From: Candidatus Pacearchaeota archaeon
GTDB lineage: Archaea; Nanobdellota; Nanobdellia; Pacearchaeales; GW2011-AR1
NCBI GenBank assembly: GCA_018304985.1
Contig: JAGVWP010000011.1
Coordinates: forward strand, 1-35,035
Reading direction: 5' to 3'
Length of the DNA: 35,035 nt
In this document: positions 12,131 to 30,798 of the stretch, piece by piece
Layout of the letters: every line of letters begins with the position of its first letter
Position numbering within the stretch: position 1 is the first letter of the stretch
The notes under the pieces: model-generated
What the model saw: only the letters and a program-made list of their open reading frames with translations
Databases searched by the model: none
What the model was told of the DNA's origin: nothing
Translations under genes and position numbers: made by a program

Positions 12131-12236
12131 ATGAACCTTTTAAGAATAAACCTTTGAAAAGACAAGCAAAAAACCTATCGGTTTTAAAGGTTCCCAAAAT
12201 CATATAAATAACTTTTGTAAAAGTTGCAAAACAAAA
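12131..12236 (+). repeat. Leader hairpin family, long form, copy 1
   Basis: Near-identical to 30697-30798; abuts the ATG at 12237. Confidence 0.75.
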
Positions 12237-12965
12237 ATGGACTTTCTAAAAGAGAATTATGCTGCAAGAAGAAGGCTTTATAAAAATAGAGACAAATTTT
12301 GGCATGAGAATAAAAAAAATTGCGAAAGAAACTGCTTATTTCTAGTTAATTTGCTTAAAAAACAATATCAAATACCCCAAAAATGGAAGATAAACATCAT
12401 TGTAGGTAATTTTTCTGAGAAAAATAATGCGAAAATAAAACCATTTGATTACTTCTCCTACAGCCTGACAAACCTTGTTGTTGCCTCAAAAAAGCAGAAT
12501 TATGAGTTCCTGATTTTTTTAAACAAAGCGAGAATTGGATTTTTATCAAAAGCAGCATTAATCCCATTAATAGCTCATGAAATGCAACATATAAAACAGG
12601 GAGCATTAAACCCAAAGGAATACCTGCTTTCAACAATTGATGATAAACTTTCTGAAAAACTTGAAAGAGAGGCTGAGCTTTCTGCAAGAAATATAAAAAA
12701 TTGGGATGAATTCAGAAAGCAACAAGTTCTGGAGAGTGTTTTATACTGCTATGATCTGTTTGGATGGAATGGAGCAAGGAAAATGGCATTATTTTTTTAT
12801 AAAGAAATCAAGGAAATTTACGGCGACGGGTATTTGGGAGATATTAATGAGGAAGAATTTAAAATTTTCTTAAATGCAATGAAAAAGAAAGATATAAATT
12901 TGTTTATAGACTATTTTCAGAAATTTAGTTCATTAACAATGTCTTTGCCTGATTTAAATGACTGA
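12237..12965 (+). CDS. Predicted cytosolic zinc metalloprotease (HExxH)
   Basis: PLIAHEMQHIKQG followed by EREAELSARN, a plausible third-ligand region. Confidence 0.6.
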   Translation: MDFLKENYAARRRLYKNRDKFWHENKKNCERNCLFLVNLLKKQYQIPQKWKINIIVGNFSEKNNAKIKPFDYFSYSLTNLVVASKKQNYEFLIFLNKARIGFLSKAALIPLIAHEMQHIKQGALNPKEYLLSTIDDKLSEKLEREAELSARNIKNWDEFRKQQVLESVLYCYDLFGWNGARKMALFFYKEIKEIYGDGYLGDINEEEFKIFLNAMKKKDINLFIDYFQKFSSLTMSLPDLND

Positions 12966-13323
12966 AAGATTTTTAATATAGGTTTAGCTAAATATGCAAT
13001 ACCTTTACCTAATTGATATGTATAAGTGATTGAGATTAATTGATTAATTTTGGTTATTTAGAGTAATCATTTAAGTTGTTTTTATATTTTCAAAATAAGA
13101 TTCTAAAATATATATTTTAACTCAAAAATATATTCGAGAAAATCAAAAAAAGGTTAAGCGCATCACCTCTTTCCCCTATTAGAGCAAGTAAATATAACTT
13201 AAACGCCTAACCCTCTCTTTCTATTAGCAGGAAAAAGCGCTTTATTAATGTTTTGTTTTACTTAAAGGGACAACAAAATATTAAATTGATAAGATATATA
13301 AGTCTGTTTTATTTATATATAAA

Positions 13324-13731
13324 ATGAGATATAAATTCCTGCCGCATACAGCAGACATAAAATTTCAGGCATATGGAAAAACACTGGATGAAAGCTTTGA
13401 AAATTCAGCTCTGGCAATGTTTAATGCAATGCATAAAGAAAAAATTAAAAGCAAGATAAAAAAAACAGCAAAAGCCAGCGGAAAAGACCTTGAATCTCTG
13501 CTTTATAATTTTCTTGAACAGCTGCTTGTTTTGCTAGACTCTAAAAATTTCTTTTTGGCAAACGCAAAGGTTAAAATTAATGAGAAAAACCTGAAGCTAA
13601 TTGCAGAATTATGGGGAGATAATGCTGGAGATTATTCAATTGGCCTTGATGTCAAAGCAATTACTTACAATAACATATTTGTCAAGAAAATAAAGGGTAA
13701 GTGGGTTTGCCAGGTTGTGGTGGACGTTTAA
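13324..13731 (+). CDS. Archease (RtcB activator)
   Basis: MRYKFLPHTADIKFQAYGKTLDESFENSALAMFNAM...; ends VKKIKGKWVCQVVVDV. Confidence 0.92.
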   Translation: MRYKFLPHTADIKFQAYGKTLDESFENSALAMFNAMHKEKIKSKIKKTAKASGKDLESLLYNFLEQLLVLLDSKNFFLANAKVKINEKNLKLIAELWGDNAGDYSIGLDVKAITYNNIFVKKIKGKWVCQVVVDV

Positions 13732-13988
13732 TAAGATAATTTATCATACAGATTAATTAGTTTGCAATAAAGTTAAACAACCATTAAATCATGCCAAATT
13801 TTTCTTGATGAAAAATTTTATATTATATGATTCAGAAACCTTTTGAAAATATACCATAATTTTCCTTATTTTTCTATTAGTGTTATTATATCTGCTTTAT
13901 TATCTTATTAATTTAATCTTTATAGATTATATGTCAAAGGTCCTCCCCAATAACTTTATAAATTTGATTTCTCTTTATTAAATATTAA

Positions 13989-14020
13989 ATGAACCCTTAA
14001 AAAAGGTTCCAAAAATCAAA
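13989..14020 (+). repeat. Leader hairpin family, short form
   Basis: ATGAACCCTTAAAAAAGGTTCCAAAAATCAAA immediately before the ATG at 14021. Confidence 0.55.
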
Positions 14021-16189
14021 ATGAAGAGCAAGAGGATATTGGTTTTAGCTGGAATATTCTTTATATTCCTAATAATATTAAGTTTCAGTATTTCTGCATT
14101 TTCCCTTAATGATTTCTTTAAATGGCTAAAGGGAGAAAAGGAGGTAAGATTAAACCCTGATGAAAACGGATTAATTCTTTATATTCCTTTTAATGACTCA
14201 AAAGATGATGTTACTGGAAATTATGATACCAGCTGCAGAAGCGGCTCTTGCCCTGTTCAAGCTGAAGGCAAGATAAATAACTCTTACAAATTTGACGGAG
14301 TAAATGATTATTTAAAAGTTATTGATAATGAAAAATTTGCATTTGCCAAGGGGGATAATTATACAATTTCTGCTTGGGTTAATATATCAAAAAAAGATCC
14401 AAAAAGATCTTATCCTGCCATAATACAAAAATGGGAGGATACTGAAACATCAATAATGATTCCATTTGAAATGAGCTATGAAAATATAACGGGAAAAATA
14501 ATATGCGGAATAAACAATGGAAGCGCAAGCATATCTACAAAATCCAATGATGTTATACAAGAAAACCAATGGAATATGATAACTTGCATCTATAACAGCA
14601 GTGATATTGTTATGTATGTAAATGGCAATTTTAACAACAAGGTTTCTTATACGATTTTAAGCGGGAATTTTAATAATAACAAAGACATCTGGATAGGATC
14701 AAAAGGAACAAACTACGGATTTTTAAATGCCTCAATTGATGATGTTAGAATTTATAATAAGGCATTGACAAAAGTGGAAATTGAAAATCTTTATTCACAA
14801 GTACAACCAACTCCAGCAATAAGCGCTTGTCCTGACAACCAGACAATTTTAAGATTATCTTCTGAAACAAATGCGCATGCTGGAACCGATACTAATTACC
14901 CGGTTAAAATTTGTTACAATAATATATTTGGAAAAGAATATATTTTTAATAATATAGCCCCCCTTAGAACTTGCAATGCCAATAATTGGATAGTTAACTT
15001 AAGCAGTTATAATAATGCTCATGGATTAATAATTGGTGGAACAACAAAAGTTTGTTATGGTGATCTGTCCTGCAGAAATGTAACTGGAACTTGCAATGCA
15101 ACTGAAAAATTAATTGTTTCTCTTTCTTCCTCGGAAAACGCTCATTTATCAAATTCAAGTGATTATCCCGTTAAGATATGCTGCAGTTCTGCTCAAGCGA
15201 ATCAAGTTCCAGTTGAAATCTGCAATAATAATATTGATGATGACAATGATAATTTAATTGATTGCGCTGATATTGCTGATTGTGGGAGCAATACTGCATG
15301 TCTACAAACAGGCAACTGCGCAATTGGAACAACTTTATGTTCTGATGGAATTTGCAGGCAGACATGCACAGAGTTTACATGCAATAACAATCTTCAATGT
15401 GAGGCTGGAGAAGGCTGTCAATGCAATGACTGCCATGGATTCCAGGATTCATGTAACGTTAATTTAACTTGCAGTTTCAGAACAAATACATGCCAGCAAT
15501 GTCCGAGTGGAACAGCATTTAACTCTGGAACAAAAACATGCGAACCTGATAGAGGAATTGGTGTTAGAATTCTTTCTCCTTTACAATGGGAAAAATTCAG
15601 CAATTCAAGAAATATTACATTTAATCAATCAAGTTACAGTATGAGAAAAGATTTGAATATAACCTGGGCATTTGGGGACGGAAGTTTTGCTAGAATAAAA
15701 AATTGCTTGACAAATGGCAATTGTAATACGACCCATAGATATAGGGAACAGGCACATTACACTATATTTGCAACTGTCAGAGAGCAGGGAGGAGTAAGAT
15801 CCAATAATAGTTTTGTAGATATCTTAGTATATAAACCCGGAATTAATGTTTTTGCAATTATAACAAGCCCTAAAACCGGGGAGAGAATTGAATCTGGAGA
15901 GGCAGTTTCATTTAATGCAAGCGGAAGTTATGCTGCTAAATGCGACTTGAATCAGTGTGAAAATGGAAAAACATGCTATACAGTTGGAGAGTTGAATTGT
16001 TATAACTTGCCAAGACCTCCACAGAATTATAGGCTTTGGTTTGAATGGACATTTGACGCCGGAACCCAGAATCAGGAAATTTTAATAGGCACATGGAATC
16101 AGAATTATACTCAAGTTGTAGAATTTGACAAGATATTTTCAAGAGAAGGTCAGCATTTTGCTTCATTGAGAGTTGGCTTTGAACAATAA
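14021..16189 (+). CDS. Secreted LamG-domain protein with Cys-rich and PKD-like regions
   Basis: Signal peptide; GLILYIPFNDSKDD...NSYKFDGVNDYLKV...NYTISAWVNIS...IDDVRIYNKALTKVEIENLYS (LamG); CNNNIDDDNDNLIDC; WAFGDGSFA..THRYREQAHYTIFATV (PKD). Confidence 0.8.
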   Translation: MKSKRILVLAGIFFIFLIILSFSISAFSLNDFFKWLKGEKEVRLNPDENGLILYIPFNDSKDDVTGNYDTSCRSGSCPVQAEGKINNSYKFDGVNDYLKVIDNEKFAFAKGDNYTISAWVNISKKDPKRSYPAIIQKWEDTETSIMIPFEMSYENITGKIICGINNGSASISTKSNDVIQENQWNMITCIYNSSDIVMYVNGNFNNKVSYTILSGNFNNNKDIWIGSKGTNYGFLNASIDDVRIYNKALTKVEIENLYSQVQPTPAISACPDNQTILRLSSETNAHAGTDTNYPVKICYNNIFGKEYIFNNIAPLRTCNANNWIVNLSSYNNAHGLIIGGTTKVCYGDLSCRNVTGTCNATEKLIVSLSSSENAHLSNSSDYPVKICCSSAQANQVPVEICNNNIDDDNDNLIDCADIADCGSNTACLQTGNCAIGTTLCSDGICRQTCTEFTCNNNLQCEAGEGCQCNDCHGFQDSCNVNLTCSFRTNTCQQCPSGTAFNSGTKTCEPDRGIGVRILSPLQWEKFSNSRNITFNQSSYSMRKDLNITWAFGDGSFARIKNCLTNGNCNTTHRYREQAHYTIFATVREQGGVRSNNSFVDILVYKPGINVFAIITSPKTGERIESGEAVSFNASGSYAAKCDLNQCENGKTCYTVGELNCYNLPRPPQNYRLWFEWTFDAGTQNQEILIGTWNQNYTQVVEFDKIFSREGQHFASLRVGFEQ

Positions 16190-16228
16190 AAAGAGCCTAC
16201 GGTTCTCTTTATGAACTCTCCCTTAAAA
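16190..16228 (+). repeat. Trailer hairpin family copy
   Basis: AAAGAGCC-TAC-GGTTCTCTTTATGAACTCTCCCTTAAA directly after the 16189 stop. Confidence 0.6.
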
Positions 16229-17125
16229 ATGGAAATAAAGAAAAATAAAAAAGAGATGATGAAAAAAGAAAAAATAATATTGGTAGGATTAGTACTTGTG
16301 TTAATTAGTATTGTAAGTATTGGATTTGCAACTGCAGTTCCAATTTGGAGTGATGATACTGGAACTAATTTTTTTACAGGAGGAAATGTTATATGCAGTA
16401 TTTCCAGTTCGGGTTCATCATGGGTAGTGGGAGGAGTTCCAACTGATGGAATGAATGATTGTTATAATGAAAATGGGGTTGACATTAATGGAGATACAAA
16501 AACAAGCTGCTGTCCTAGCGGATATACTTGCAATCAGCAAACAGGAAATTGTGAAGCAGGTCCTATCCAACCACCTCCACCAACAGCAACATCATGCGCT
16601 GATTACAGCCAGGCTGATTGTGGAATTTTCCCTTTAACTGAAGAAATAAAAAATTCTATTGAAGAACAGGCAGATATAAAAGTTGATGGGGAATTAATAA
16701 GATTCTGTGATGAAGATTATTTAAATGATGATCCTAATATATGCCTTTATTTGGCCGAGTGTGCATGTAATTGGATAAATGATGTCTGCAAAGAAACATA
16801 TTTAGTCGGAGACCCTTGCGTTGATGGATTTGATCCAAATAATGTTAATAATGTTCCTAGATGCGAATACACAACAAATCAAGTTGAAAATAAATGTAAT
16901 GAACCTGAAAAAAGTATACTCCTCTCGTGGAATGCTTTGTTTAGATATCTGAATGGCACAAGAGCATTAGATTCAAGGAATTCGTGCCAAAGCGGATTCA
17001 AAGAATTCCCGTGCCCTGTAAAATCAACCCTTCCTTTTTTCGGAGCTTTAGGTTTTATGATAAGCATTTTAGCAATTGGAATGATTTATTATTTAATTGC
17101 GAGAAAGAAGATAAAATTTATCTAG
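16229..17125 (+). CDS. Secreted Cys-rich protein with C-terminal TM anchor; start likely 16229-16259 rather than 16211
   Basis: Signal peptide MMKKEKIILVGLVLVLISIVSIGFATA; C-terminus PCPVKSTLPFFGALGFMISILAIGMIYYLIARKKIKFI. Confidence 0.7.
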   Translation: MEIKKNKKEMMKKEKIILVGLVLVLISIVSIGFATAVPIWSDDTGTNFFTGGNVICSISSSGSSWVVGGVPTDGMNDCYNENGVDINGDTKTSCCPSGYTCNQQTGNCEAGPIQPPPPTATSCADYSQADCGIFPLTEEIKNSIEEQADIKVDGELIRFCDEDYLNDDPNICLYLAECACNWINDVCKETYLVGDPCVDGFDPNNVNNVPRCEYTTNQVENKCNEPEKSILLSWNALFRYLNGTRALDSRNSCQSGFKEFPCPVKSTLPFFGALGFMISILAIGMIYYLIARKKIKFI

Positions 17126-17183
17126 GAAATTGTTCTGAAATCATGCCATATCTTTACATGGATTATTAGAGAAAGTGATTGAA

Positions 17184-17223
17184 TAAAAAGAACCAAGTTT
17201 CTCTTTATGAACTCTCCTTTTAA
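17184..17223 (+). repeat. Trailer hairpin family copy
   Basis: AAAAAGAACCAAGTTTCTCTTTATGAACTCTCCTTTTAA. Confidence 0.6.
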
Positions 17224-17354
17224 ATGTAATATGATTAATCCATTTAATAAAACAGGTTAAATTTCTCACAACGAGAAATTTAGTGTTGAATTAATTTCAA
17301 AACTATAATACATAAAGTTTAATAAACAAGTATTCACTTCCTAAGATAATTAAA

Positions 17355-18779
17355 ATGAGCAAAGAAAAAATAAGGAAAATATCTGAAAATATTTATGAAA
17401 TAGAGAAAGAAGGCAAGATGAATGTGCCTGTTAGAGTTTACGCATCTTCAGATTTATTAAAAGATATGGAAAAAGACCAGTGTTTGCAGCAGGGAAAAAA
17501 TGTAGCAATGCTTCCCGGGATACAAAAATATTCAATCGTCCTTCCTGATGCGCATTTGGGCTATGGTTTTTCCATCGGAGGTGTTGCAGCTTTTGATTTA
17601 GATGAAGGAATTATAAGTCCGGGCGGAGTGGGTTTTGATATAAATTGCAGCGTCAGACTTTTAAGAACTAATTTAACAAAAAAAGATATTGAAGGCAAGG
17701 AAAAGCAAATATCCAAGGAAATGTATAAAGCAATTCCTTCAGGAGTTGGAAAAGGGACTAAAGTTAAGATTACAAAAGAAGAATTAAAAGAAATAATGCA
17801 ATATGGGGCAAAATGGGCTGTTGATAAAGGCTATGGAGTAAAAGAAGATTATGAATTTAGTGAAGAAAATGGTTGCATGAAAGAAGCTGATTCTTCTTGC
17901 GTCTCTGATACTGCAATTGCTAGAGGGATTAATCAGCTTGGAAGTATAGGCTCGGGAAATCATTTTTTAGAATTGCAGTATGTTGAAAAAATATTTGATA
18001 AAGAAACTGCTAGTGTTTTTGGTTTGGAAAAAGATGAAATTGTTATAATGATTCATTGTGGCTCAAGAGGATTTGGACACCAAATTGCTTCTGATTACAT
18101 GAAGCTAATGGAAGATGAATACGGGTTTGAAAATCTTCCAGACAGGCAGTTAATCTGCGCGCCAATAAATTCAAAGCTTGGAAAAGATTATTATAAGGCA
18201 ATGTGCGCTGCTGCTAATTTCGCATTCTGCAATAAACAAGTTTTAACTCATTTAACAAGAGAGGCAATGAAGAAATTTCTTCCAGATTTCAAGGCAGAAG
18301 TTGTTTATGACGTGTGCCATAACATTGCCAAGTTTGAAGAGCATGAAATAGATGGCAAGAAAGTAAAAGTATGTGTGCATAGAAAAGGTGCTACCAGAAG
18401 TTACGGACCCGGAAAAAAAGAATTGCCAAAAAAATACCAAGTTACAGGACAGCCAATTTTAATTCCTGGAAGCATGGGAACAGCAAGTTATGTTTTAGTC
18501 GGAACTAAAAAAGCAGAAGAGTTAAGCTTTGCAAGCACTGCTCACGGAGCAGGAAGAATGATGTCAAGGAATGAGGCAATGAAAAGATTCAGAAGCGAGG
18601 AAATTAAGGATGAAATGGAAAAAAAGAATATCGCTGTAACAGCCGGAAGCTGGAAATCTTTGGTTGAAGAAGCTTCGCAGGTTTACAAAAATGTCGACGA
18701 TGTTGTTAAAGTGAGTGATGAGCTAGGCATTGGGAATATAGTTGCCAGAATGAAGCCTATGGCTGTTATTAAGGGATAA
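17355..18779 (+). CDS. rtcB: RtcB, 3'-phosphate/5'-OH RNA ligase
   Basis: PGGVGFDINCSVRLL; GSIGSGNHFLELQ; HCGSRGFGHQIASDY; GSMGTASYVLVG; STAHGAGRMMSR. Confidence 0.97.
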   Translation: MSKEKIRKISENIYEIEKEGKMNVPVRVYASSDLLKDMEKDQCLQQGKNVAMLPGIQKYSIVLPDAHLGYGFSIGGVAAFDLDEGIISPGGVGFDINCSVRLLRTNLTKKDIEGKEKQISKEMYKAIPSGVGKGTKVKITKEELKEIMQYGAKWAVDKGYGVKEDYEFSEENGCMKEADSSCVSDTAIARGINQLGSIGSGNHFLELQYVEKIFDKETASVFGLEKDEIVIMIHCGSRGFGHQIASDYMKLMEDEYGFENLPDRQLICAPINSKLGKDYYKAMCAAANFAFCNKQVLTHLTREAMKKFLPDFKAEVVYDVCHNIAKFEEHEIDGKKVKVCVHRKGATRSYGPGKKELPKKYQVTGQPILIPGSMGTASYVLVGTKKAEELSFASTAHGAGRMMSRNEAMKRFRSEEIKDEMEKKNIAVTAGSWKSLVEEASQVYKNVDDVVKVSDELGIGNIVARMKPMAVIKG

Positions 18780-19008
18780 AAATAAAAGATATTAATTATT
18801 AAAAATCTTAATCTAATAACCTTAAAATTATCATAACTAATTTAACTTACTATAAACCAAGTTAAATTTCTCATAAACGAGAAATTTATTATTGTATTAT
18901 TTTCAGAAAAGTTTTGAAATATTATAATAATTTTTCCTAATTTTTTATACTCATTCGCTAAGTTTTAGCATATAAGCAATTTTCATTTCTATAACATTTA
19001 TATTCTCC

Positions 19009-19791
19009 TTATTTTACAGAAACCCTTATTTTTTGCAAATAAGATTTAAGATACTCATAAAGCATTTTTCCTTCTTCTAATGGAAGCAACCTTTTGTTTT
19101 CTTTGTGATCTTTTGCATAAACATATCTGTTATAAGCGGTTAAAGAGCATGAAATTTCCTCTATTAACTTAATAAAAGCATTTTTCCTGTAATCTTTATT
19201 TTTTATCAAGCAATCAATCATATAAAGAGTTCTTAATCTTAAAATCAGTGAATAAGCTATAGAGTCGCTTAATTTTCCATCGGGCTTTTTTTTCTCAATT
19301 TTATCTATTGAATTTTTTATTACCTTTAAGCTATTTTCTGTTGTATCTAAAAACCATTTAGTATTCTTTTTGGTTACTTCTATCTTTATCTCTTTTAGGA
19401 ATTTATTATTTAACAAAGGCCTCGCTTCTTTTAACATAGTCCCAATTGGCAATAAATTCTCGTTCAATTTATAGTTTAGCAAATCCAATGACACTATCAT
19501 TATCTCATAATTGCTTATTTTGATAAGTTCTTTACTTGTTTTTTCAGAAATAATCAAAATATCTATATCGCTTATTCCTTCCTGATCATTTCTTGCATAA
19601 CTTCCAACGAGATAAATGCCAATTATATCCTGCAAATCTATAATGGATTTAACAGCATCTAAGACTTCATATAATATCATCTCTGGAGATTTATCTACAA
19701 GCTCTATTCTTACCTGCTTATTCAGCCATGCTTTTGGCAGAACAACTGCAGATGCATTTCCTGATTTTATTGTTTTTTTTAACAGCTCCAT
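19009..19791 (-). CDS. Fusion: AbrB-like N-terminus + minimal nucleotidyltransferase + C-terminal helical domain (HEPN-like?)
   Basis: TIKSGNASAVVLPKAWLNKQVRIELVD (AbrB-like); IYLVGSYARNDQEGISDIDILII (MNT motif); C-terminal RYVYAKDH fits Rx6H. Confidence 0.7.
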   Translation of the reverse strand: MELLKKTIKSGNASAVVLPKAWLNKQVRIELVDKSPEMILYEVLDAVKSIIDLQDIIGIYLVGSYARNDQEGISDIDILIISEKTSKELIKISNYEIMIVSLDLLNYKLNENLLPIGTMLKEARPLLNNKFLKEIKIEVTKKNTKWFLDTTENSLKVIKNSIDKIEKKKPDGKLSDSIAYSLILRLRTLYMIDCLIKNKDYRKNAFIKLIEEISCSLTAYNRYVYAKDHKENKRLLPLEEGKMLYEYLKSYLQKIRVSVK

Positions 19792-19927
19792 TTTATTTTT
19801 ATTTGTTATTTATTTCACTTGTTATTTATTTTCCTCTTCGTCTAGATATTCTTCATCTTCTTCCTTTATTTTCTTGAATTTCTCCTCTATTTCTTTTTTC
19901 CAGTAAGCTTTTTTATAATTTATATTT

Positions 19928-19949
19928 ATGTAAAGACATGTAAAGACAT
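19928..19949. promoter_or_regulatory. Two tandem 10-bp repeats ATGTAAAGAC ATGTAAAGAC AT upstream of NTase fusion gene
   Basis: Direct repeat, each unit with ATGT/ACAT dyad; next to minus-strand TATA-like GGTTTATAAATA. Confidence 0.45.
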
Positions 19950-20048
19950 ATTTATAAACCTTTCTAATACAGCAATTTAGATTTACTTTATAAACCATTT
20001 ATAAGATAGTTTTATAAATTTCATTTTTCTATCTTATTTATTAATAAA

Positions 20049-23000
20049 ATGAGGTGGAAGTTAAGAATATTTTTTGTTGCATTATTCGCTCTAGTTTTAA
20101 TATTTTTAAGTGTTGATGTAAGCGCTTTGCGATACATTACTGGATGCCAGAATATAGATATACCCGATACTTATGTGTTAACAAGGAATATTGATTTAAC
20201 TGCAGAGAGTTTTGCGCCTGGAACATTTAGTTGCATTAATATAAGAGCTAATGATGTAATTTTAGATGGTAATGGATATATGATTAAAGGCGACTCTTCT
20301 GTACAATCTGCAAGAGGAGTATATGCCGCAGATGTAACTAATATACATATTAGAAACCTTAAAATCATTAATAATCAAAAGGGAGAAGGTATTCGTTTTG
20401 ACGAAGTTGGAAATTCTGTTATAGAAGATAATGTTTTTTCTAATAATGAAATTGGAATTGGCATATATAATAGTGTTGCTACAACCATAAATAACAATAT
20501 GGCATGTGGGAATATTAATGATGATATTTTTTGCTATTATTCTACATCTCCCGATCTATCCAGTAATAAATTTACAAAAATTTCTTATGAAAGTTGCGGA
20601 GGAAAAGAACCGTCTGCAGATCCAACTTCATGCGACAATATTCAAATATCCTCATGCACAGACATTATAAGCCCTGGAACTTATGTTTTAAAACAAAATA
20701 TTTTAAGCGGTAAAACAAGCGGAGCTTGCATAAACATTAATTCGAATTTTGTTACTTTTGATGGCTGGAGTTCCTCAATAATCGGGAATAACGATCCGAA
20801 TGTTAATGGAATATATGCTTATGGCAAAAAAAATCTGGAAATAAAAAGGCTTAAAATAAGCAAATTTAACATCGGCATTTATATGTTTGGAAATGAGCCT
20901 GGCGGATATTTAACTGAATATTCTCTGATAGAAAATAATGAGGTTTATTCTAATAATTATAAAGGAATTTTTGTTGTGGGAAATAAAAATAGTTTAGTAG
21001 GAAATAAAGTTTCAAATTCTTATGATGGCATAATTATTGATGGGAATGAAAATAATATAACTAATAATGAAGCATGTGAAAATTCTTATCGTGACTTTTG
21101 GTGCTTTGATGGAGAAGGAAATTATGGCAATGAAAATAAACTTAGAAGGGTTACAAACTGCCGTTCAGGCTGGCCTCAGCAAGGGACTGATTATACTTTG
21201 TGCCCCATATCTCCTCCTTCTGGAACACCTGTAACTGGATGCATGATTCTCACCAATCCTGGAACCTACTTTTTAACCCAGGATATTGGAACTCCTCAAA
21301 ACCCATTTGATCCTGATCCTTCTTTTGAAACAAGTTGTATTGTAATAGGTGTTAATGGTGTTACTTTAGATGGAAGAGGATATAAAATAACCTGTGATTC
21401 TAGGGCTGGAGCAAATGCCGTTTTTGTAGATAGGCCTTTTAGCAATATAATTGTAAAAAATTTAAATATACAAAATTGCGCTGGAAGCGGCATAGAATTT
21501 AAAAGAGTATCTGGATCATCCGAATCAGCATCTATAGAAAAGAACACAATCATTTCAAGCGGATCTGGAATATCATTATTTAATACAAATAATATAAAGA
21601 TAGAAGATACCGCTGCATGTGGCAACACTTATGACATTAATTGCAATGGAGGCGCTTCAGGAACTAGTGGCGCTGGAAATGAATTTCTAAATGTTTACAG
21701 GCCGCAATGCGTAGGCACATGGCCAACAACTCCTGCAGACTACACTCCGTGTTACCAAATATCAAGCTGCGGAGATATTAAAGTTCCTGGAATTTATAAT
21801 TTAATAAATGATATAACAGGAAAAAGCGGTGAATCATGCATTAGGATTCTATCAGATAATGTTATTCTAAATGGGAATGGAAAGAAAGTTCAAGGAGTAA
21901 GTGGAAGCCTTGTAGGAATTGAAGTTTTAAGCAAAAAAAATATAACAATTAATCGAACAATTATAAATGGATTTAGCAATGGAATAAATTTTTTCTATAT
22001 CAGCAATTCTTCTATAATAAATAATATATTAAAATCAAATACTCATGGATTAAATCTTAATTTTATTACCAATGTTATAATAACAAATAATTCCTTAAAT
22101 TTAAACACAAACGGCATAAGCCTTTTAAATGGAGCAAATATAACCGTCAAAGAAAATAATGCCAGCATGAACAGCAACTGGGGAATTTATCTTTCAGATT
22201 TATCTAACAGCTCTGTTTTATTTAATAATATCCACCTTAACTCTAATGGTTTAAATTTAGGAAAAGAAATTAGCGCAATTGGAAGCGATAACAATAGTGT
22301 AAGTTATAACAACATAAGTTATAATACAAATAGTGGATTAACAATATATGGCAATAATCAAAACTTTACAAAAAATAATATAAGCAACAATGGCAATGGA
22401 GTAACTCTGCAAAGCGGGCAAAAAAATACCTTAGAAGATAATATTGCATGTAAAAATACAAATAAAGATTTTTATTGTATTAGCGGATCAAATACATTTG
22501 GAACAGGAAACCAATTTACAAGCATACGACAATGTGACGGAGTGTGGCCGCAATTCGGATCAGGCTATGTTTTATGCCCTTTTCCTGTAGATGTATGTAG
22601 AAATTTTGTAAATGATGATGGTGATACAGGAAATTTAATAGATATGGCTGATGCAGATAATCCTGCAAGCAGGGAATATTGCCCTTCAAATTTGTGCGCT
22701 GGAGATAATCCTCAACTAACCTATCCTGTTGCAGGAAATGTTAATACATCAAATCCGCCCAGTACAAAAGGAGTACCGTGGAATACTGGAGTAAATCCAA
22801 ATAAAATACCGAATATTGCGTGGTGTTGTCCATCAAACCAGTGTTTTTTTAATGGAATTGGATGCCAGCCAGATGGATTCAGATTTGCTAATCCTCCGTA
22901 TGATTTTGTATGTTCAGTAAATGGAAATAGCGCGGTCTGGTGCAATACCACATTTGTGAATAATGGGACAGGATATTGTGAATGTCCAAATCCTGGAACA

Positions 23001-23732
23001 CTATATGATTCAGTTACAGGAAAATGTCTAGCTAGCGGGGGGATATGTAATTTTAATGGAAGATGCGAAACTGATGAAACATTCTGCTCGTGCCAAAGTG
23101 ATTGTTATGACCCTAAAATAGACTGCACCGGGATTTCAAATTTACCGTTGCAAGCTTCGTGCAGCCAGTTTACAAGCGAAGATGAGTGCAATAACTGGGT
23201 TAATCTGCCCAAAGATGAAAAAAATTTAATTTTTACAAGTATAGAAGAACATTCATTTATACCTGAATTAGTCAGATATGGTTTTTGTTCTGACAAAAGC
23301 CTGACTTTTGAAGTCGGACCTGATAGCTGCGGGACTTATACAAAATGCAGCTGTTGGTGGGATACTAACAACAGCAGATGTTTAGAAAGAACAGAAAAAG
23401 CTGAAACTATTCAAGGATGCATACCTGGAGGGATTACAGAAATAAATTTATGCCTAACAGATGTAGGAATAAAAAATTCTCCGGGAAGTTGTGAACAGGG
23501 CGGGGCTGATAATGAAATTATATGGAATTCAACATTCCAAGAAACATCAGCTTCAAGTCCTATCAGCGAGGGAAATCCTGAGAAAGGCTGCGCATCAGGA
23601 AGCAAGCCATTGCCATGTCCTGTGATAACAAAACTTCCATTTTTCACTTTATTTAGTTTAATGATAAGCCTTGGTGTTATTTCTGTGATTTATTTTGTGT
23701 TTAGAAAGAGAATAAAGTTTGTTGAAGAATAG
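20049..23732 (+). CDS. Secreted parallel beta-helix (NosD-like) protein with four tandem modules, Cys-rich C-terminus and TM anchor
   Basis: Signal peptide; repeated N-rich beta-helix rungs (NNxxxxNxxGI); C-terminus PCPVITKLPFFTLFSLMISLGVISVIYFVFRKRIKF. Confidence 0.85.
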   Translation: MRWKLRIFFVALFALVLIFLSVDVSALRYITGCQNIDIPDTYVLTRNIDLTAESFAPGTFSCINIRANDVILDGNGYMIKGDSSVQSARGVYAADVTNIHIRNLKIINNQKGEGIRFDEVGNSVIEDNVFSNNEIGIGIYNSVATTINNNMACGNINDDIFCYYSTSPDLSSNKFTKISYESCGGKEPSADPTSCDNIQISSCTDIISPGTYVLKQNILSGKTSGACININSNFVTFDGWSSSIIGNNDPNVNGIYAYGKKNLEIKRLKISKFNIGIYMFGNEPGGYLTEYSLIENNEVYSNNYKGIFVVGNKNSLVGNKVSNSYDGIIIDGNENNITNNEACENSYRDFWCFDGEGNYGNENKLRRVTNCRSGWPQQGTDYTLCPISPPSGTPVTGCMILTNPGTYFLTQDIGTPQNPFDPDPSFETSCIVIGVNGVTLDGRGYKITCDSRAGANAVFVDRPFSNIIVKNLNIQNCAGSGIEFKRVSGSSESASIEKNTIISSGSGISLFNTNNIKIEDTAACGNTYDINCNGGASGTSGAGNEFLNVYRPQCVGTWPTTPADYTPCYQISSCGDIKVPGIYNLINDITGKSGESCIRILSDNVILNGNGKKVQGVSGSLVGIEVLSKKNITINRTIINGFSNGINFFYISNSSIINNILKSNTHGLNLNFITNVIITNNSLNLNTNGISLLNGANITVKENNASMNSNWGIYLSDLSNSSVLFNNIHLNSNGLNLGKEISAIGSDNNSVSYNNISYNTNSGLTIYGNNQNFTKNNISNNGNGVTLQSGQKNTLEDNIACKNTNKDFYCISGSNTFGTGNQFTSIRQCDGVWPQFGSGYVLCPFPVDVCRNFVNDDGDTGNLIDMADADNPASREYCPSNLCAGDNPQLTYPVAGNVNTSNPPSTKGVPWNTGVNPNKIPNIAWCCPSNQCFFNGIGCQPDGFRFANPPYDFVCSVNGNSAVWCNTTFVNNGTGYCECPNPGTLYDSVTGKCLASGGICNFNGRCETDETFCSCQSDCYDPKIDCTGISNLPLQASCSQFTSEDECNNWVNLPKDEKNLIFTSIEEHSFIPELVRYGFCSDKSLTFEVGPDSCGTYTKCSCWWDTNNSRCLERTEKAETIQGCIPGGITEINLCLTDVGIKNSPGSCEQGGADNEIIWNSTFQETSASSPISEGNPEKGCASGSKPLPCPVITKLPFFTLFSLMISLGVISVIYFVFRKRIKFVEE

Positions 23733-24323
23733 TTCTGAAATCATACCATATCCTTACATGGTTTATATGTGAAAGATGATATGAGAATTCTAGAAAAATA
23801 GATTAAAACCTTTGGCTTTAATATCATATAAAAAATTATCTGTCCAATGTCCAAGACAATTTTTCTGATAAAAATATCGAAAATACTAAAACATAAAATG
23901 GAGGTAAATAAAGAAAAGAAGTGATGTAATATAAATGTTAATAAAATAATTCAAATGCAGAATTTTCATAGAAGTTGCTGAGGTTTATCAATCTATCAAC
24001 ATGATCATGCTTAATTATACTAAACCCTAATTAGTTATTCTTAATCATTAGTGGCTGCAAAAATCGAGAAAAGCAGTAAAAAACTATCATTATATTCGGT
24101 AAAATAAGCAATTTATTTATCAGAAAGAAAATGTTAAGATTATGCAGCGGTAAAAAGATTTTGCTATATTTCAAGATAATATTATGATTTTTATCAATGA
24201 TAATTTACTAAAAAGGCGTTATAATGTGGATTTTATCGCATTTTTCAACCTGATTTATTAGAGAAAGCGACTGATGTTAATTTGAAAGCTGCTGATATTT
24301 ACAATAGAAAAGTATTTAAATCC

Positions 24324-24343
24324 ATTATCTTTAAAAAGATAAT
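24324..24343. promoter_or_regulatory. Palindrome ATTATCTTT-AA-AAAGATAAT overlapping the start codon of the HTH gene
   Basis: Perfect 9-bp inverted repeat just downstream of TATA-like GTATTTAAAT. Confidence 0.55.
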
Positions 24344-24995
24344 GAAAATAGTAAATGAGATAACAGTTGAAATAGTAAAAAATGCCAAAGATGGAGAGAG
24401 CATTTATAGCTTGGCTTCTAAAACAGGGTTTGCCTACTCTGCAGTCTATAAATGGGTTTGCGAATTAGAAAAATATGGAGTTATTAATTTAATTAGGAAA
24501 GGGAATAAAAATGTTATTAAAATTAATAAAAATTTAATTTATAACAAGTTCAGAGAATTAGACTATGCTATTTCAGTTATTGAAAAAGATAATGCTTTCT
24601 GGGAATTTATTAAGAGTTTAAAATTAAAAATAAGATTTGTAAGAGGGACAGCCGCAGTTATTTGGACTCGTGGAAGTTTTATAACTGGGGATTTTTATGA
24701 CAGAATTTATTTTTTAGAGGTTGAGGATAAAGATTCAGATGATTTAAAAAAAATTTTAGAAAAGCGTGGAATTGCATATAGCGAAGATATAATAAATAAT
24801 AAAAGGCCTTTTGTTATCATCATTAAAAAACAAGCATTTGAAATAGAAAGAAAAAATGGTTTGCCTGTTATGCCTTTAAGAGAATTGGTAGAATGGGGCA
24901 AAGAATTGCGCTTGGATAATATTTTAGAGCAGTTGGATGAATTATATAATTTAAAATTGAATATAAAATATGCGGAGGTTTCAACAAATGCCTAA
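24342..24995 (+). CDS. Winged-HTH protein, AbiEi-like antitoxin candidate (start likely ATG 24342, not TTG 24282)
   Basis: SIYSLASKTGFAYSAVYKWVCELEKYGVINLIRKGNKNVI wHTH; overlaps the downstream NTase gene. Confidence 0.6.
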   Translation: MKIVNEITVEIVKNAKDGESIYSLASKTGFAYSAVYKWVCELEKYGVINLIRKGNKNVIKINKNLIYNKFRELDYAISVIEKDNAFWEFIKSLKLKIRFVRGTAAVIWTRGSFITGDFYDRIYFLEVEDKDSDDLKKILEKRGIAYSEDIINNKRPFVIIIKKQAFEIERKNGLPVMPLRELVEWGKELRLDNILEQLDELYNLKLNIKYAEVSTNA

Positions 24996-25674
24996 GATAA
25001 ATTCAAGAATTGGCTTGCTTGAAAGAGAACAGGAAGTTATAAGGATATTGGCATTATTGCTAGACAAGAAATTGGATTTTGTTGTTGTTGGGGGGTATGC
25101 AATTTCAACATATAAAAAAAGATTTTCTATTGATTTAGATATTGTTATTAAAGAGGATGATCTCGAGAAATTTGAAAGAATATTAGAAAAAGAGAGATAT
25201 TCGCTGCACTATGAGAAAGAAATAGCTATGCTATACGGAGAGAATTTTAAGCGTTTTATTAAGAATGTGGGAGACTTGCCTGTAGATATAGATCTGCTGA
25301 TTAATGGATTAGTATCAAGAACAACAGATGCAACATGGGGTTTTGATTATATAAAGAAACATTCTGTGAAAAGAAGGCTGAATAACTTGGAATTTTTAAC
25401 CCCTGAAAAAGAACTTCTTATTGCAATGAAATTACATAGTGGAAGATTATCAGATGTTAGAGATATTGTTGCCTTAATGCCATGCAATAAAGAAGCCCTT
25501 GAGAAACATTTGCTAAAAGGAGATATTAAAAAATTGAAACAGTCCATGAAGAAACAACTTTCTTTTCTGGAGAAGCCACAATTTGATGACAGTTTTAAGG
25601 GAATATTCGGGCCACATGTCTACAATCAAAAAGATGTTCAAACAGCAAAAAGGCTGATTAAGGAGATATTATGA
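24988..25674 (+). CDS. Nucleotidyltransferase, AbiEii-like toxin candidate
   Basis: LDFVVVGGYAISTYKKRFSIDLDIVIKEDD; LPVDIDLLINGL; TPEKELLIAMKLHSGRLSDVRDIVAL. Confidence 0.75.
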   Translation: MPKINSRIGLLEREQEVIRILALLLDKKLDFVVVGGYAISTYKKRFSIDLDIVIKEDDLEKFERILEKERYSLHYEKEIAMLYGENFKRFIKNVGDLPVDIDLLINGLVSRTTDATWGFDYIKKHSVKRRLNNLEFLTPEKELLIAMKLHSGRLSDVRDIVALMPCNKEALEKHLLKGDIKKLKQSMKKQLSFLEKPQFDDSFKGIFGPHVYNQKDVQTAKRLIKEIL

Positions 25675-25726
25675 CTTTTCGAATAACAAACATTTTAAAA
25701 ATCTTAAAATACTATAAAATTAGAGA

Positions 25727-28483
25727 ATGTTAAAAAGAGGCAAAGTGAAAAATAATGTTTTTTTAGGAATAGTTTATACATTAATACTAATTATATTTAT
25801 ATTATTTTTATCCTCTTTTGCAAGCGCTTCCTTCACATTAGGAAATAAAAGCGAGCAGATAAATGCAGTTTATTCTTTGAATGAAAAGATTTCTGGATGG
25901 ATAAACATAAGCATTGCAAATGAAAGCTATAATTCTGAATTTTCTGACAGTTTTGGAAATAAAATTGGATTTATAGATTTTTTAAATAAATATTATCCTA
26001 AAAATTATTCTTGTATTCCATCAAATTGTGGAAATGATTACATTTTAAGTTCCAATGGGGAGGCATCAAAATCATTTTCTTTAAATGCTAATTCTGGAAA
26101 TGAAAAATTAATCGGAATAAGGGTTGATGGCAGAAATGTTGAAGTTACTAAATTTTCTTTAGATATTGCAAGCAATGCTCAGGCATCGTGCAATGCCCAG
26201 CTTGGAATTGATTTTCTTGATAATAATGAATCTAACTGGGGAAATAAAAAAGCAATACTTGAAGATTGTGTAAGCGAGGTAAAATCTTCATGTTATAGTT
26301 CAGGAAGTGGATTCAGTGATTGGTTTATGGTATCTTCTCAGCCCTATTGCGAGAAAATAATCCTGCCTCAAGCGCCGGCATTTGAAATAAAAGCTATGAT
26401 GAAAAAAGATGCTGGAGCAATGCCCGCATTTAGTAATGGATTATTAAAAGCTTCAATCTATGACAAGAACAAGAATTTTGCAGGAGAGTGCAACCTAACC
26501 TCACCACTTGAAACAGAAAGCAGAGTAAGCTGTATTGTTAATTATGCTGCAAAAGAAACAAGCGAGCATTATTTGTGTGTGGAAGCTTATACAATTGATA
26601 ATGTTGAAATATCTGGATATAAACTGCAGGGAAAATCAAGCGGGAGTTTCTGCGGGTTTCTTGGAGAGCCGAGCCAGACAAGCGGATTTTCAAAAGATTA
26701 TAATATTGTTGTTTCTGCAAAAAAATTTGATGCTGTTGGCAGCTTTAAAATAAATGAAACATTATATGAAGAACAAAATGCTAATGGAATTATTACAGAT
26801 ATTAACAATTACCTAACAAGCAGATATTCAAGAAATTGTGATAATGGCTGCTTAATGCCTATAAAGCTCTATGGGGCTGGCCAAGATATTACACTTAATA
26901 ATTTGAAAGCAGAATACACTTCTGAAGGAAGCGCTGGAACAGAAACAGGCACTTTATATTTTCTCGGAAAAACACTTCCAAAGATAAACACAAAATTCCT
27001 TAAATTAGATTTTGGCTTAATGAATTTTTCAGTTAATGGAGAGGGAAATAAAACATTAAGGCTTTATTTAAATGACAATGAAATATTAAATAAGAATATA
27101 ACCATTGTTAAACCAAGAAATCAAGCAATAAAACAGGTTTATCCAAAAAATGTCGCAACAGCTACTTCTACATTATTTGTTGCATTTGTTGATTCTTCAA
27201 TAAACACTTCAGGAAAGAATTTTGTCTGGGATTTCGGAGATGAAAGTTCTATAGAAACAACTTCTACAAACAAAATAAAGCATACTTATAATGAATTAAG
27301 AAATTATACGCTTAGAATCAAATTATTAAACGGAACTAATGAGTTAGGAAGCTCTGTGTTTAATATATCTGCAGAATCCCCAAAACAAGCGATAAATTCA
27401 ACTTTAAAAGAATATCAGGACAAGTTTTCAAAGGCCAAAACTCAAATAAATGCTCTGCCTGCAAGCTATAAAACTATACTAAAGGAGGAGCATAATCTAG
27501 ATGCAGATGAAATAACCTCGACACTAAACTCAATTGACAGTTCTTATAAGCAATTATTATCAAGTGCAACAACCAAGGATTCGGATTATGTTTCAATTAT
27601 GACTGAACTAAACGCTTTAGACATTCCTCAAGCGGTTCAATCAAGTTCAACTTCTCAAATAAAAATAATTAATGATGTAAATGAACTTGATTTAAGCAAG
27701 GCAAATGATGTTTTTGATGAGAGTTATGATCTTGATATGCAAGACGAGTATAAAAATGCAATATTGGCATGGTTTTTGGATAATATTGACGCTGAAGTAA
27801 AGCACAAGATTATAAGCGTTTATTATAATGACCGAACTGAAAACGCGATAAGTGAATTTGTTTTGGAAATAAAACCAAAAGCCGAGCTAGGTGAAGTGTA
27901 TATTATGATCAATGCAAACAGTGAGAAAATTTTGTTTGATGGAGATTATGAAATTTTAGATAGTGATGAAGCAACTGGAGTGAAGGTTGATTTTTCAGGA
28001 ACAAGCGGGAAAACAATAAAATTTGCAATAAAAGATAGTGTTAATGTTTTTGAACTCCCAATGTTTATTCTCCCAAAATCAAGTGATCTTAGTATGGGAG
28101 AAAGTATAATCAGCAGGCTAAAACCTAAAAGTTTCTTAGTTAGATTTTTAATTGGTATGTTAATAACTTTAATAATTGCTCTGGCAATTTACATTTTTCT
28201 TCAGGAATGGTATAAGAAAAATTATGAAAATTCTTTGTTCAAAGACAAAAATCAGCTTTATAATTTAATTTATTTCATAAGCAATGCAAAAAGGCGAAAT
28301 TTGAGTGATGAGGAAATAAGAAAAAGGCTGAAAAGCCAATGGAAATCAGAGCAAATAGGTTATGCTATAAAGAAATTTGAAGGAAAAAGAGTTGGAATGT
28401 GGGAACTTCCAATATTCAGGGGAAGAGAACAGAAGAAAATACGGCAGGAGATAATGAAAAGAGGGCCGAGAAGAATAATTTAG
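25727..28483 (+). CDS. Large exported PKD-containing protein with one C-terminal TM and a cytosolic helical tail
   Basis: N-terminal TM/signal; FVWDFGDESSIETTSTNKIKHTYNELRNYTLRIKLL (PKD); TM FLVRFLIGMLITLIIALAIYIFL; tail LSDEEIRKRLKSQWKSEQIGYAIKKF. Confidence 0.65.
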   Translation: MLKRGKVKNNVFLGIVYTLILIIFILFLSSFASASFTLGNKSEQINAVYSLNEKISGWINISIANESYNSEFSDSFGNKIGFIDFLNKYYPKNYSCIPSNCGNDYILSSNGEASKSFSLNANSGNEKLIGIRVDGRNVEVTKFSLDIASNAQASCNAQLGIDFLDNNESNWGNKKAILEDCVSEVKSSCYSSGSGFSDWFMVSSQPYCEKIILPQAPAFEIKAMMKKDAGAMPAFSNGLLKASIYDKNKNFAGECNLTSPLETESRVSCIVNYAAKETSEHYLCVEAYTIDNVEISGYKLQGKSSGSFCGFLGEPSQTSGFSKDYNIVVSAKKFDAVGSFKINETLYEEQNANGIITDINNYLTSRYSRNCDNGCLMPIKLYGAGQDITLNNLKAEYTSEGSAGTETGTLYFLGKTLPKINTKFLKLDFGLMNFSVNGEGNKTLRLYLNDNEILNKNITIVKPRNQAIKQVYPKNVATATSTLFVAFVDSSINTSGKNFVWDFGDESSIETTSTNKIKHTYNELRNYTLRIKLLNGTNELGSSVFNISAESPKQAINSTLKEYQDKFSKAKTQINALPASYKTILKEEHNLDADEITSTLNSIDSSYKQLLSSATTKDSDYVSIMTELNALDIPQAVQSSSTSQIKIINDVNELDLSKANDVFDESYDLDMQDEYKNAILAWFLDNIDAEVKHKIISVYYNDRTENAISEFVLEIKPKAELGEVYIMINANSEKILFDGDYEILDSDEATGVKVDFSGTSGKTIKFAIKDSVNVFELPMFILPKSSDLSMGESIISRLKPKSFLVRFLIGMLITLIIALAIYIFLQEWYKKNYENSLFKDKNQLYNLIYFISNAKRRNLSDEEIRKRLKSQWKSEQIGYAIKKFEGKRVGMWELPIFRGREQKKIRQEIMKRGPRRII

Positions 28484-28554
28484 AATTGCATTAAAGTAAC
28501 ACAATGGGTTAAGAAAGCTTTAAATAGAAAAATAAATTAAATATTTAATAAAAA

Positions 28555-29190
28555 ATGAAGGTGAAATTTTTCAAGAATTTTGGCAGGAATTTTTTTTCTA
28601 AATTGTTCAGAGGAAAAAAAGAAATAAGCCTTGGTTTTTACGGCCCGCCTAATGCTGGCAAAACAAGCCTTGCAAATAAGCTGTGCAAAGACTGGCTTGG
28701 AGAAGAACTTGGCAAGGTAAGCCATATTCCCCATGAAACAAGAAATGTTCAGTTCAAGGAAAAAGTTAATATTGAGTATAATGGAAAAAAAATGAATTTT
28801 AAACTAGTTGACACTCCTGGAATAGCAACAAAAATTGATTATGAAGATTTTATCAAGTTTGGAATTAAGAGAAAAGAGGCCCAAAAAAGAGCTAAAGAAG
28901 CAACTCAGGGAGTTATTGATGCAATAAAATGGATTGAAGACATGGAAGCTGTAGTTGTTGTGCTAGACTCGTCTAAAAATCCGTATTCTCAGGTTAATAT
29001 TACAATAATAGGAAATTTAGCTGCAAGAAAAATACCTGTCCTGATAGTTGCAAATAAGATTGATTTAAAAAAAGCAGATGTTAAAAAAGTTGAATCTGCT
29101 TTTCCAGAATATAAAGTTGTGGGAATAAGCGCAAGAACAGGGGAAAACATGGAGGAGTTTTACAAGGCGCTGTTTAAATTAGTGAAATAA
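28555..29190 (+). CDS. Era-like GTPase (OapA-like)
   Basis: G1 GPPNAGKTS, G3 DTPG, G4 NKID, G5 ISA. Confidence 0.9.
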   Translation: MKVKFFKNFGRNFFSKLFRGKKEISLGFYGPPNAGKTSLANKLCKDWLGEELGKVSHIPHETRNVQFKEKVNIEYNGKKMNFKLVDTPGIATKIDYEDFIKFGIKRKEAQKRAKEATQGVIDAIKWIEDMEAVVVVLDSSKNPYSQVNITIIGNLAARKIPVLIVANKIDLKKADVKKVESAFPEYKVVGISARTGENMEEFYKALFKLVK

Positions 29191-29198
29191 TAAAAATA

Positions 29199-29232
29199 AA
29201 CCTTTAAAAAAGGTTTCCAAGATCATATAAAA
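29199..29232 (+). repeat. Leader hairpin family, short form
   Basis: AACCTTTAAAAAAGGTTTCCAAGATCATATAAAA immediately before the ATG at 29233. Confidence 0.5.
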
Positions 29233-29622
29233 ATGGCAAAAAAAATAAAAGGACTGACAATTGAATTTATTCCGTATTCGGAAATAAGAGACTTGAACAG
29301 CGGGGAAAGAGTTAAGAAACTATTGTCTATTGTTCTGACAAACAGAATAATTGTTTTACAGGGAAGATTAAAGCCGGAAGAGGAAACAAGGCTGATTGAA
29401 GATACAATGGCTATGATTGATCATGTCAAGCATTTTAAAGGAATAGAACTGGCAGTTATCGGCGCTGATAATGGAAATAATCCTGTAATGAGAAAATTTA
29501 CAAGCGGAATTGCAAAAATGCTCGTTGGAGACACTGCTGCAATGACAATTATAGGTCCTGCAAGCATTGTCAAGGATATAAAAAAGAATCCGAGAAAAAT
29601 TGAGCTGATGCTGAAGAAATAA
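29233..29622 (+). CDS. DUF2073 family protein (OapB-like)
   Basis: LTIEFIPYSEIRDLNSGERVKKLLS...GIELAVIGADN...LVGDTAAMTIIGPASIVKDIKKNPRKIELML. Confidence 0.8.
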   Translation: MAKKIKGLTIEFIPYSEIRDLNSGERVKKLLSIVLTNRIIVLQGRLKPEEETRLIEDTMAMIDHVKHFKGIELAVIGADNGNNPVMRKFTSGIAKMLVGDTAAMTIIGPASIVKDIKKNPRKIELMLKK

Positions 29623-29747
29623 CTTTTTCTTGAATTAATGTAAGAGTAAATTTCTCTATGTGAAAAATTTGGCTTTATTTATATGATATAACTACTAAGA
29701 TTATTAATTAAACTTGCTTAATACATTGTTTTTATATTTTCAAAATA

Positions 29748-29788
29748 AAGACAACCAATGGTTTTCTTTATCAAACTTTCCTTTTAAT
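29748..29788 (+). repeat. Trailer hairpin family copy
   Basis: AAAGACAACCAATGGTTTTCTTTATCAAACTTTCCTTTTAA; reverse complement nearly identical to 5286-5325. Confidence 0.65.
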
Positions 29789-30105
29789 TGCTAAACACAC
29801 AATATTAAATTTTTCTATGTGAAAAATTTATGCCTTATTTATCAGAGTAGCTTCTGATTTAATTCTTGGCTTAATTATTTGTTTTAAATTATTTTTCTTT
29901 ATTTTTTCAAAATCGTATTAAATAACTGCGAAGCAGACAATCTTAAAATCATTAACTTTTCTAAGGGCGGGTGGCGAGCAACTTTGCGAAAGTATCTTGA
30001 ATATAATTATGAGCGAGGTTGTGAGGAAATGGGAGAAGGTGGCGGGAGAAGAGCCGAGCGAAGGAATGAGTGAAGTAAATAAGCCATTTTATTATACTAA
30101 AATAT

Positions 30106-30128
30106 ATAAACAGCGTCTTGCTGTTTAT
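30106..30128. promoter_or_regulatory. 9-bp inverted repeat ATAAACAGC-GTCTT-GCTGTTTAT in 5' region of the Zn-ribbon gene
   Basis: Read directly; lies between TATA-like AAAATATATAAA and the likely start at 30132. Confidence 0.5.
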
Positions 30129-30131
30129 TTT

Positions 30132-30527
30132 ATGCCACATCAATGCGTTCATTGCTCAAAAGTATATCCAAATGCTGCTAAAGAATTACTGGAAGGTTGC
30201 GAGTGCGGAAGCCATTTTTTCTTTTACATTCGCGAAGAGCAACTGAAAAAAGCAATGGATCAGCCTGTAATTGAGCTGACAAGCGAGGAAAAAGAAAAGG
30301 TTGAGCATGATGTTAGAGAGATGATGGGTGTTGAAGACGAGGAAATACCGGTTATCTTAGATTTAGAGGCTGTGCATGTTTTAGGGCCTGGAAAATTTGA
30401 AATAGATCTTGTCAGGCTTTTTGATACAAAAAGGCCTTTAGTGTATAAATTAGAAGAGGGCAAGTATATTATTGATTTAGCTTCTACATTTATGTCAGAT
30501 ATGAAAGATAAGAAAGAAATAAAGTAA
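30132..30527 (+). CDS. Zn-ribbon protein (DUF2072/OapC-like); likely start 30132 rather than 29997
   Basis: MPHQCVHCSKVYPNAAKELLEGCECGSHFFFYIREEQ: CxxC...CxC ribbon near the expected N-terminus. Confidence 0.75.
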   Translation: MPHQCVHCSKVYPNAAKELLEGCECGSHFFFYIREEQLKKAMDQPVIELTSEEKEKVEHDVREMMGVEDEEIPVILDLEAVHVLGPGKFEIDLVRLFDTKRPLVYKLEEGKYIIDLASTFMSDMKDKKEIK

Positions 30528-30534
30528 GTTATAA

Positions 30535-30615
30535 AAAGAACCTATATGTTAAGTTTAACTTAACATCAAGATTATATGTATAATCTTAAAGGTTCTTCCT
30601 ATGCCATCTCCTCTA
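30535..30615 (+). repeat. Trailer hairpin family, expanded three-way-junction copy
   Basis: AAGAACC [ATGTTAAGTT-T-AACTTAACAT] [AAGATTATA-TG-TATAATCTT] AAAGGTTCTTCCTATGCCATCTCCTC. Confidence 0.6.
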
Positions 30616-30696
30616 AGAATACAAGAGCTATAAAGTAAGATATTTAAACCATCTAAACTATTGTTAATAATAAATTAAAAAGAGTGTGATATGGGA

Positions 30697-30798
30697 ATGA
30701 ACCTTTTAAGAATAAACCTTTGAAAAGACAAGCAAAAAACCTTAAGGTTTTAAAGGTTTCCAAAATCATATAAATAACTTTTAAAAAAGTTACAAAAA
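30697..30798 (+). repeat. Leader hairpin family, long form, copy 2
   Basis: Same 46-nt start as 12131 and conserved AAAATCATATAAATAACTTTT end; abuts the ATG at 30799. Confidence 0.75.

Follow-up and report, generated by a model that had tools for sequence, protein, structure and literature searches.

A short hairpin repeat at gene starts of a Candidatus Pacearchaeota archaeon: a probable palindromic mobile element

A dispersed hairpin repeat found in front of unrelated genes in a Candidatus Pacearchaeota-type archaeon resembles, in its behaviour, short palindromic mobile elements and is most likely one of them. We assign a probability of about 0.72 to the reading that these repeats are palindromic insertion elements, small (about 35-100 bp) and non-autonomous, and not a conserved regulon. 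Near-identical copies occur at unrelated loci, with 33 sites in the source genome and 20-41 matches in three congeners. Copies have been inserted in sense orientation at gene starts, their hairpin has been maintained and the family has been amplified lineage by lineage. The repeat had been described in an earlier note as a structured leader family with six copies in the window (the whole stretch of DNA that was analysed, 35,035 nt), and that interpretation of the family as a whole is partly supported.

The six copies lie where they had been reported, all on the + strand and all upstream of genes: a covariance model built from the copies in the genome gave exactly six matches in the window (E 3.5e-10 to 2.1e-15), and the next-best match had E 0.027. 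A search of the window against Rfam gave 0 matches above the gathering threshold. The copies are as follows.

2115..2156, + strand: copy 1, hairpin GAACCTTTT/AAAAGGTTC followed by CCAAAACCTATAAA
8657..8724, + strand: copy 2, outer stem with a GGATCC variant, two inner hairpins (GGACC/GGTCC and AGAACC/GGTTCT) and tail CCAAAATCATATAAA, upstream of the TadC-like gene 8749
12131..12208, + strand: copy 3, nested, with a second AACCTTT at about 12148, inner hairpin AAAACC-TATC-GGTTTT and tail CCAAAATCATATAAA, upstream of gene 12237
13989..14021, + strand: copy 4, degenerate stem GAACCCTT/AAAGGTTC with a short tail that reaches into ATG 14021 (LamG gene)
29196..29231, + strand: copy 5, A-U closing-pair type, AAACCTTT/AAAGGTTT followed by CCAAGATCATATAAA, adjoining the OapB start at 29233
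30688..30696, + strand: GATATGGGA, which corresponds to GATATGAGAAAG in the start region of the sister-species gene
30697..30774, + strand: copy 6, nested, inner hairpin AAAACC-TTAA-GGTTTT followed by CCAAAATCATATAAA, upstream of the PKD/beta-helix gene 30799

Copy 1 stops ~40 nt short of gene 2199, as had been noted, and this gene has its own Shine-Dalgarno (SD) sequence. Copy 4 has one stem mismatch and does not contain CATATAAA; the counterpart of its LamG gene in the sister species is without a copy. Copy 5 is real, but it begins at 29196 (ATAAACC...GGTTTCC) and not at 29199 as first given, and just an ATAAACC-like remnant of it is found at the OapB site of the sister species. The correspondence between GATATGGGA and the start of the sister gene places copy 6 within the ancestral start region. 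The genes that had been named as neighbours were recovered in part: Pfam matches identify T2SSF/TadC at 8749, LamG and PKD at 14021, OapB (= DUF2073) at 29233 and PKD at 30799, whereas the supposed pilin 2199 and metalloprotease 12237 have no Pfam match, though the latter contains an HEMQH motif. The reported absence of SD motifs at the copies holds, but it is ordinary, as an SD precedes just ~13% of the gene starts of the sister genome.

Other features were also observed in the window. A different dispersed repeat (TTCTGAAATCATGCCATATCTTTACATGG...) occurs at 408, 1241, 11023, 13841, 17128, 23728 and 34288, in several cases directly after stop codons, and is often followed by hairpin repeats, namely TAAATTTCTCACAACGAGAAATTTA at 1330, 17247, 18852, 29647 and 34158, and GAACC..GGTTC at 11252 and 17181; it is possibly a 3'-end counterpart of the start-site family. 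A toxin-antitoxin pair (MazE/AbrB-like and ParE-like) lies at 707-1218, and adjoining GTPase, OapB and OapC genes at 28555-30527. Since OapB and OapC are 'origin-associated' families, the latter region may be close to a replication origin.

In the source genome (972 kb, 44 contigs), pattern and covariance-model searches located ~33 sites. One pattern gave 12 matches against 0 for a reversed-pattern control, a second gave 16 against 0, and the covariance model gave 34 matches at E<2e-4; the repeat family is not due to chance. Other genomes of the genus gave 24, 20, 41 and 11 matches, and two genera elsewhere in its taxonomic family gave 9 and 5; in the remaining genomes, matches were mostly absent or weak. 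The repeat is thus abundant in one Pacearchaeota genus and reaches at least two further genera of that taxonomic family. Among public relatives, exact matches come mainly from MAGs of Candidatus Pacearchaeota and Nanoarchaeota, and no match to the element was found in viral contigs. Tandem and nested copies occur. In genome G004 (loci L138, L129 and L134), tandem arrays of the element have ~57-nt spacing, and a spacer hairpin, ACTTTTAAAAAAGTAAC, recurs between copies.

The alignment of 90 copies gave a consensus in which AT[G/A]AACCTTT and AAAGGTT[C/T] are separated by a loop of 3 to about 50 nt and followed by CCAAA. The conserved unit is therefore smaller than the outer stem plus tail described earlier: the hairpin and CCAAA are family-wide, whereas the CATATAAA tail, and sequence past CCAAA generally, is lineage-specific. 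Even in the window, tail CCAAAATCATATAAA is exact in 3/6 copies only. The tails cluster by lineage, a pattern consistent with separate amplifications in each. These observations also bear on the proposal of a mobile promoter cassette, in which the ATATAAA tail would serve as a TATA box. The tail of some copies does resemble an archaeal TATA box; however, it is not conserved in the family, it adjoins the ATG in several copies, and many copies sit between operon genes, so that a promoter role is very improbable. The mobile half of the proposal is borne out by occupied and empty orthologous sites and by start-codon duplications, as described below.

The suggestion that stems stay paired while loops change was upheld at the closing pair, with covariation judged by pair counting. 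This pair is G-C in 53 copies, A-U in 29, G-U in five and unpaired in three, i.e. paired in 87/90, although the two subfamilies may go back to one event. Both the G-C and A-U types occur together in every copy-rich genome but G013, in which three copies were counted, which indicates that the stem was kept through change on both sides; furthermore, a compensatory change from C-G to U-A is seen at SecD. The remaining stem is nearly invariant, and pair counting is thus uninformative within the source genome alone: the closing pair covaries strongly, but the inner pairs there mostly do not vary. The loop is modular, being empty or holding one or two hairpins, and orthologous copies at L13, an M50 peptidase and SecD have matching flanks with different loop modules; the loop has been swapped for other hairpins while the stem was kept. 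Among the short copies, RNA folding recovered the stem with z between -1.6 and -4.4, and it did so for two of the three long copies (z -1.5 and -3.0); in the predicted fold of the 30697 copy, pairing uses the second AACCTTT instead.

Insertion is shown by the comparison of orthologous sites in two species of the genus and by start-codon duplications. Presence in one species and absence in the other was found at eIF1A, S14, L18, S6e, L6, L4, L30, L19e and a TTCAAAATGATATC site. At eIF1A, the occupied site reads TTTAAATGGAA[about 37 nt]AAATGGAAAATCC and the empty sister site TTTTAAATGGAAAATCC, and the copy is bracketed by a duplicate of the start codon (AAATGGAA, element, AAATGGAA). The corresponding pair at L6 is TTTTTACTA[GTGAACC...]AAAATGAAA versus TTTTTATTAAAATGAAA; L19e has its start ATGAACCTCAATAAAA repeated twice with an element after each repeat, and at L4 the element provides the stop codon of the upstream gene. 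Among orthologous pairs, six sites are common to both species and about nine are species-specific; L13, S3Ae, SecD and S4 are held in common by both species, and L24 between genera.

In-register duplicates of the start region, variable in length (about 6-22 nt), accompany about 12/82 copies, and most copies are without clear duplication. Duplicates of effective length at least 8 were found in eight copies, compared with a mean of 0.6 and a maximum of three when flanks were swapped (200 shuffles). An ATG is always present downstream of the element. One duplicated start has decayed from ATG to AGG in the source genome and is intact in the sister; the loss of this upstream ATG leads us to take the downstream ATG as the one used. 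In some insertions a short stretch with the start codon and first codons has been duplicated, so that the gene retains an intact start downstream.

The duplications bear on two further explanations. Initiation might occur at the old duplicated ATG, the element forming a short upstream ORF that stops by the recreated ATG and permits reinitiation. The frame of the upstream ATG does stop near the next ATG in 7/12 copies with duplicated starts (one via the next duplicated start), against a background of 22% for stops that fall within -12..+4 nt when every copy and frame is counted, although this comparison (p 0.007) was made post hoc. The sample is small, however, the decayed start speaks against such use, two copies form in-frame fusions instead and A-type copies have no ATG of their own, and we therefore consider such an initiation device improbable. 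A conserved upstream ORF (MNL*) was rejected, as A-type copies have ATA in place of ATG and the first stop varies; an SD substitute at fixed spacing was rejected because distances from element to ATG vary between 10 and more than 100 nt. A byp-like programmed translational bypass of the hairpin, in which the ribosome would take off from one set of duplicated codons and land in the other, would account for the duplicated codons that flank the hairpin, but it is scarcely credible given that a downstream ATG is always at hand and that copies inside coding sequence are all in frame, with none out of frame that would need a bypass.

These coding copies (6/6 in the same stop-free frame) encode the peptide [N/D/H]KP[L/F]..KV[S/P]K, slightly diverged in the C16 and C43 copies, and are mostly located within lysine- or histidine-rich stretches. 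Under the mobile-element reading, their single frame would be the expected remainder after purifying selection on random insertions, gene-breaking ones probably having been lost. In-frame coding insertion is not the rule, with only six such copies and most copies at starts.

The bias of placement towards gene starts is extreme: 29/33 sites in the source genome are sense and upstream of a start (p about 1e-19), where the strand-specific share of upstream-of-start space is 16% as measured in the sister genome. Gene maps were made with a simple ORF caller and covered about 0.41 Mb in the source genome and 0.69 Mb in the sister. In both species together, 50/57 sites are at starts, whereas an AAAATGA-like target would place about 57% of those non-coding insertions that are tolerated at a start or close to one (p 5e-7). 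Both the sense orientation and the start placement exceed the prediction from this motif, and the excess points to targeting or selection beyond it. Translation genes lie downstream in 10/28 cases in the source genome (S14, L13, EF-1A, S3Ae, L18, eIF1A, S6e, aIF5B, S4 and L24) and in 10/20 in the sister (L19e, L22, L13, S3Ae, L15e, S4, L30, L6, L4 and L21e, with S3Ae, L13 and S4 assigned by orthology), compared with an assumed baseline of about 7%. In G004, at L131 and L141 (C20:4299 and C38:3297), two paralogous genes of 66 aa each have a copy between a strong SD (AAAGGAGGTAAAA) and their ATG, and the hairpin thus parts the SD from the start.

The excess of translation genes, together with the sense, upstream position, the compensatory closing pair, the stable hairpin (z down to -4.4) and the sites in common with the sister species and, at L24, other genera, would suit a cis-regulatory RNA leader in which initiation is controlled by a protein or ligand bound to the hairpin and CCAAA, for example of ribosomal-protein and translation-factor genes. 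However, the gene set turns over between the sister species, many targets are not translation genes (pilins, LamG, SecD), the spacing to the ATG is unconstrained, the inner stem has no covariation support in the source genome, and coding-sequence copies and start-codon duplications do not fit a leader. Such a leader is consequently unlikely as an account of the family. The shared sites also fit a useful element and to that extent count against the mobile-element reading; regulation at L13, S3Ae, SecD, S4 and L24 is possible, as is a regulatory effect of the hairpin on translation. Furthermore, the start bias and the translation-gene excess make a purely neutral insertion model incomplete.

Copies insert at or directly after the start codon in sense orientation, and the mobile-element reading would have a putative trans-acting enzyme mobilise the hairpin and CCAAA. 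An IS200/IS605-type Y1 transposase gene lies in the window (34476-34943, - strand), and Y1 transposases are present in 7/7 copy-rich and 14/38 copy-poor genomes. A reverse transcriptase, whose best NCBIfam match is a group II intron RT below the cut-off, occurs in 6/7 copy-rich genomes. As mobilisers, both are only correlated with the element. The link to reverse transcriptase was set aside, since none was found in G020, which has nine matches, and derivation from IS200 ends was rejected because the hairpins flanking the window IS200 differ from the element. No autonomous element with the same ends was found among the window IS200 copy and three Y1 loci of relatives; in L154, a copy beside a Y1 gene seems to have stood at the start of a gene that the IS interrupted. 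Y1 enzymes are not known to produce target duplications. The irregular length of the duplications, unlike that of a standard transposase, and the lack of a clear one at most copies count against the element reading, and with no autonomous partner found the element is not assigned to a named family.

Several known systems are comparable, of which Rickettsia palindromic elements and yeast mitochondrial GC clusters come nearest. Rickettsia palindromic elements are short, non-autonomous palindromic repeats dispersed genus-wide, several of them in frame inside protein genes (PMC10969869). The archaeal element appears analogous in being short, palindromic and dispersed with some coding copies in frame; however, the Rickettsia elements are about 150 bp and lie inside ORFs, whereas the present element is 35-100 bp, mostly at start codons, sense only and associated with duplicated start codons. 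Yeast mitochondrial GC clusters (GC42) and double-hairpin elements are very short hairpins that turn over fast, have occupied and empty sites, end in direct repeats, form merged or nested copies and encode no enzyme of their own (PMC4478555). The archaeal element shares the short hairpin, the occupied and empty sites and the nesting, but has variable-length duplications and start-codon placement in place of AG/ACT flanking repeats. REP/BIME repeats with REP-associated tyrosine transposases and IS200/IS605 relatives likewise involve single-stranded hairpin repeats, and a Y1 gene is present in the window; the window IS200 ends, however, do not resemble the element. Like ribosomal-protein leader RNAs, the element forms a structured leader upstream of ribosomal-protein genes, but it also occurs at unrelated genes and in coding regions, its gene set is not conserved and it has no Rfam match. 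No description of such an element in DPANN archaea was found in the open-licence literature, nor any of its unusual feature, start-codon placement combined with start-codon duplication.

Dispersed repeats in small archaeal genomes are usually purged or lie in neutral space. The present element inserts where essential genes are most sensitive, including those for EF-1A, eIF1A, aIF5B and many ribosomal proteins. Such genes probably persist because their start codon either remains intact or is duplicated, and insertion at starts would be tolerated for the same reason. A more specific and tentative version, which we regard as somewhat doubtful, is a start-codon 'safe haven', in which a mobile element targets start codons, duplicates the start to rescue the gene and leaves a structured leader. 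Targeting may then act via the start-codon sequence, the transcription or translation state, or an RNA intermediate, and ribosomes may initiate behind the leader or reinitiate after it. If true, the translation start would clearly serve the element as a safe haven, and new 5' leaders would arise in lineages where few genes carry an SD signal. Copies probably lie in mRNA 5' leaders or operon junctions, and the hairpin would therefore be transcribed; its effect on translation may be tolerated or mildly modulatory, with the old upstream start possibly a short upstream ORF. When these genomes are annotated, a predicted start codon, N-terminal extension or conserved leader RNA may accordingly be an insertion product, and the element, being probably within the mRNA, could alter the production of ribosomal and other essential proteins.
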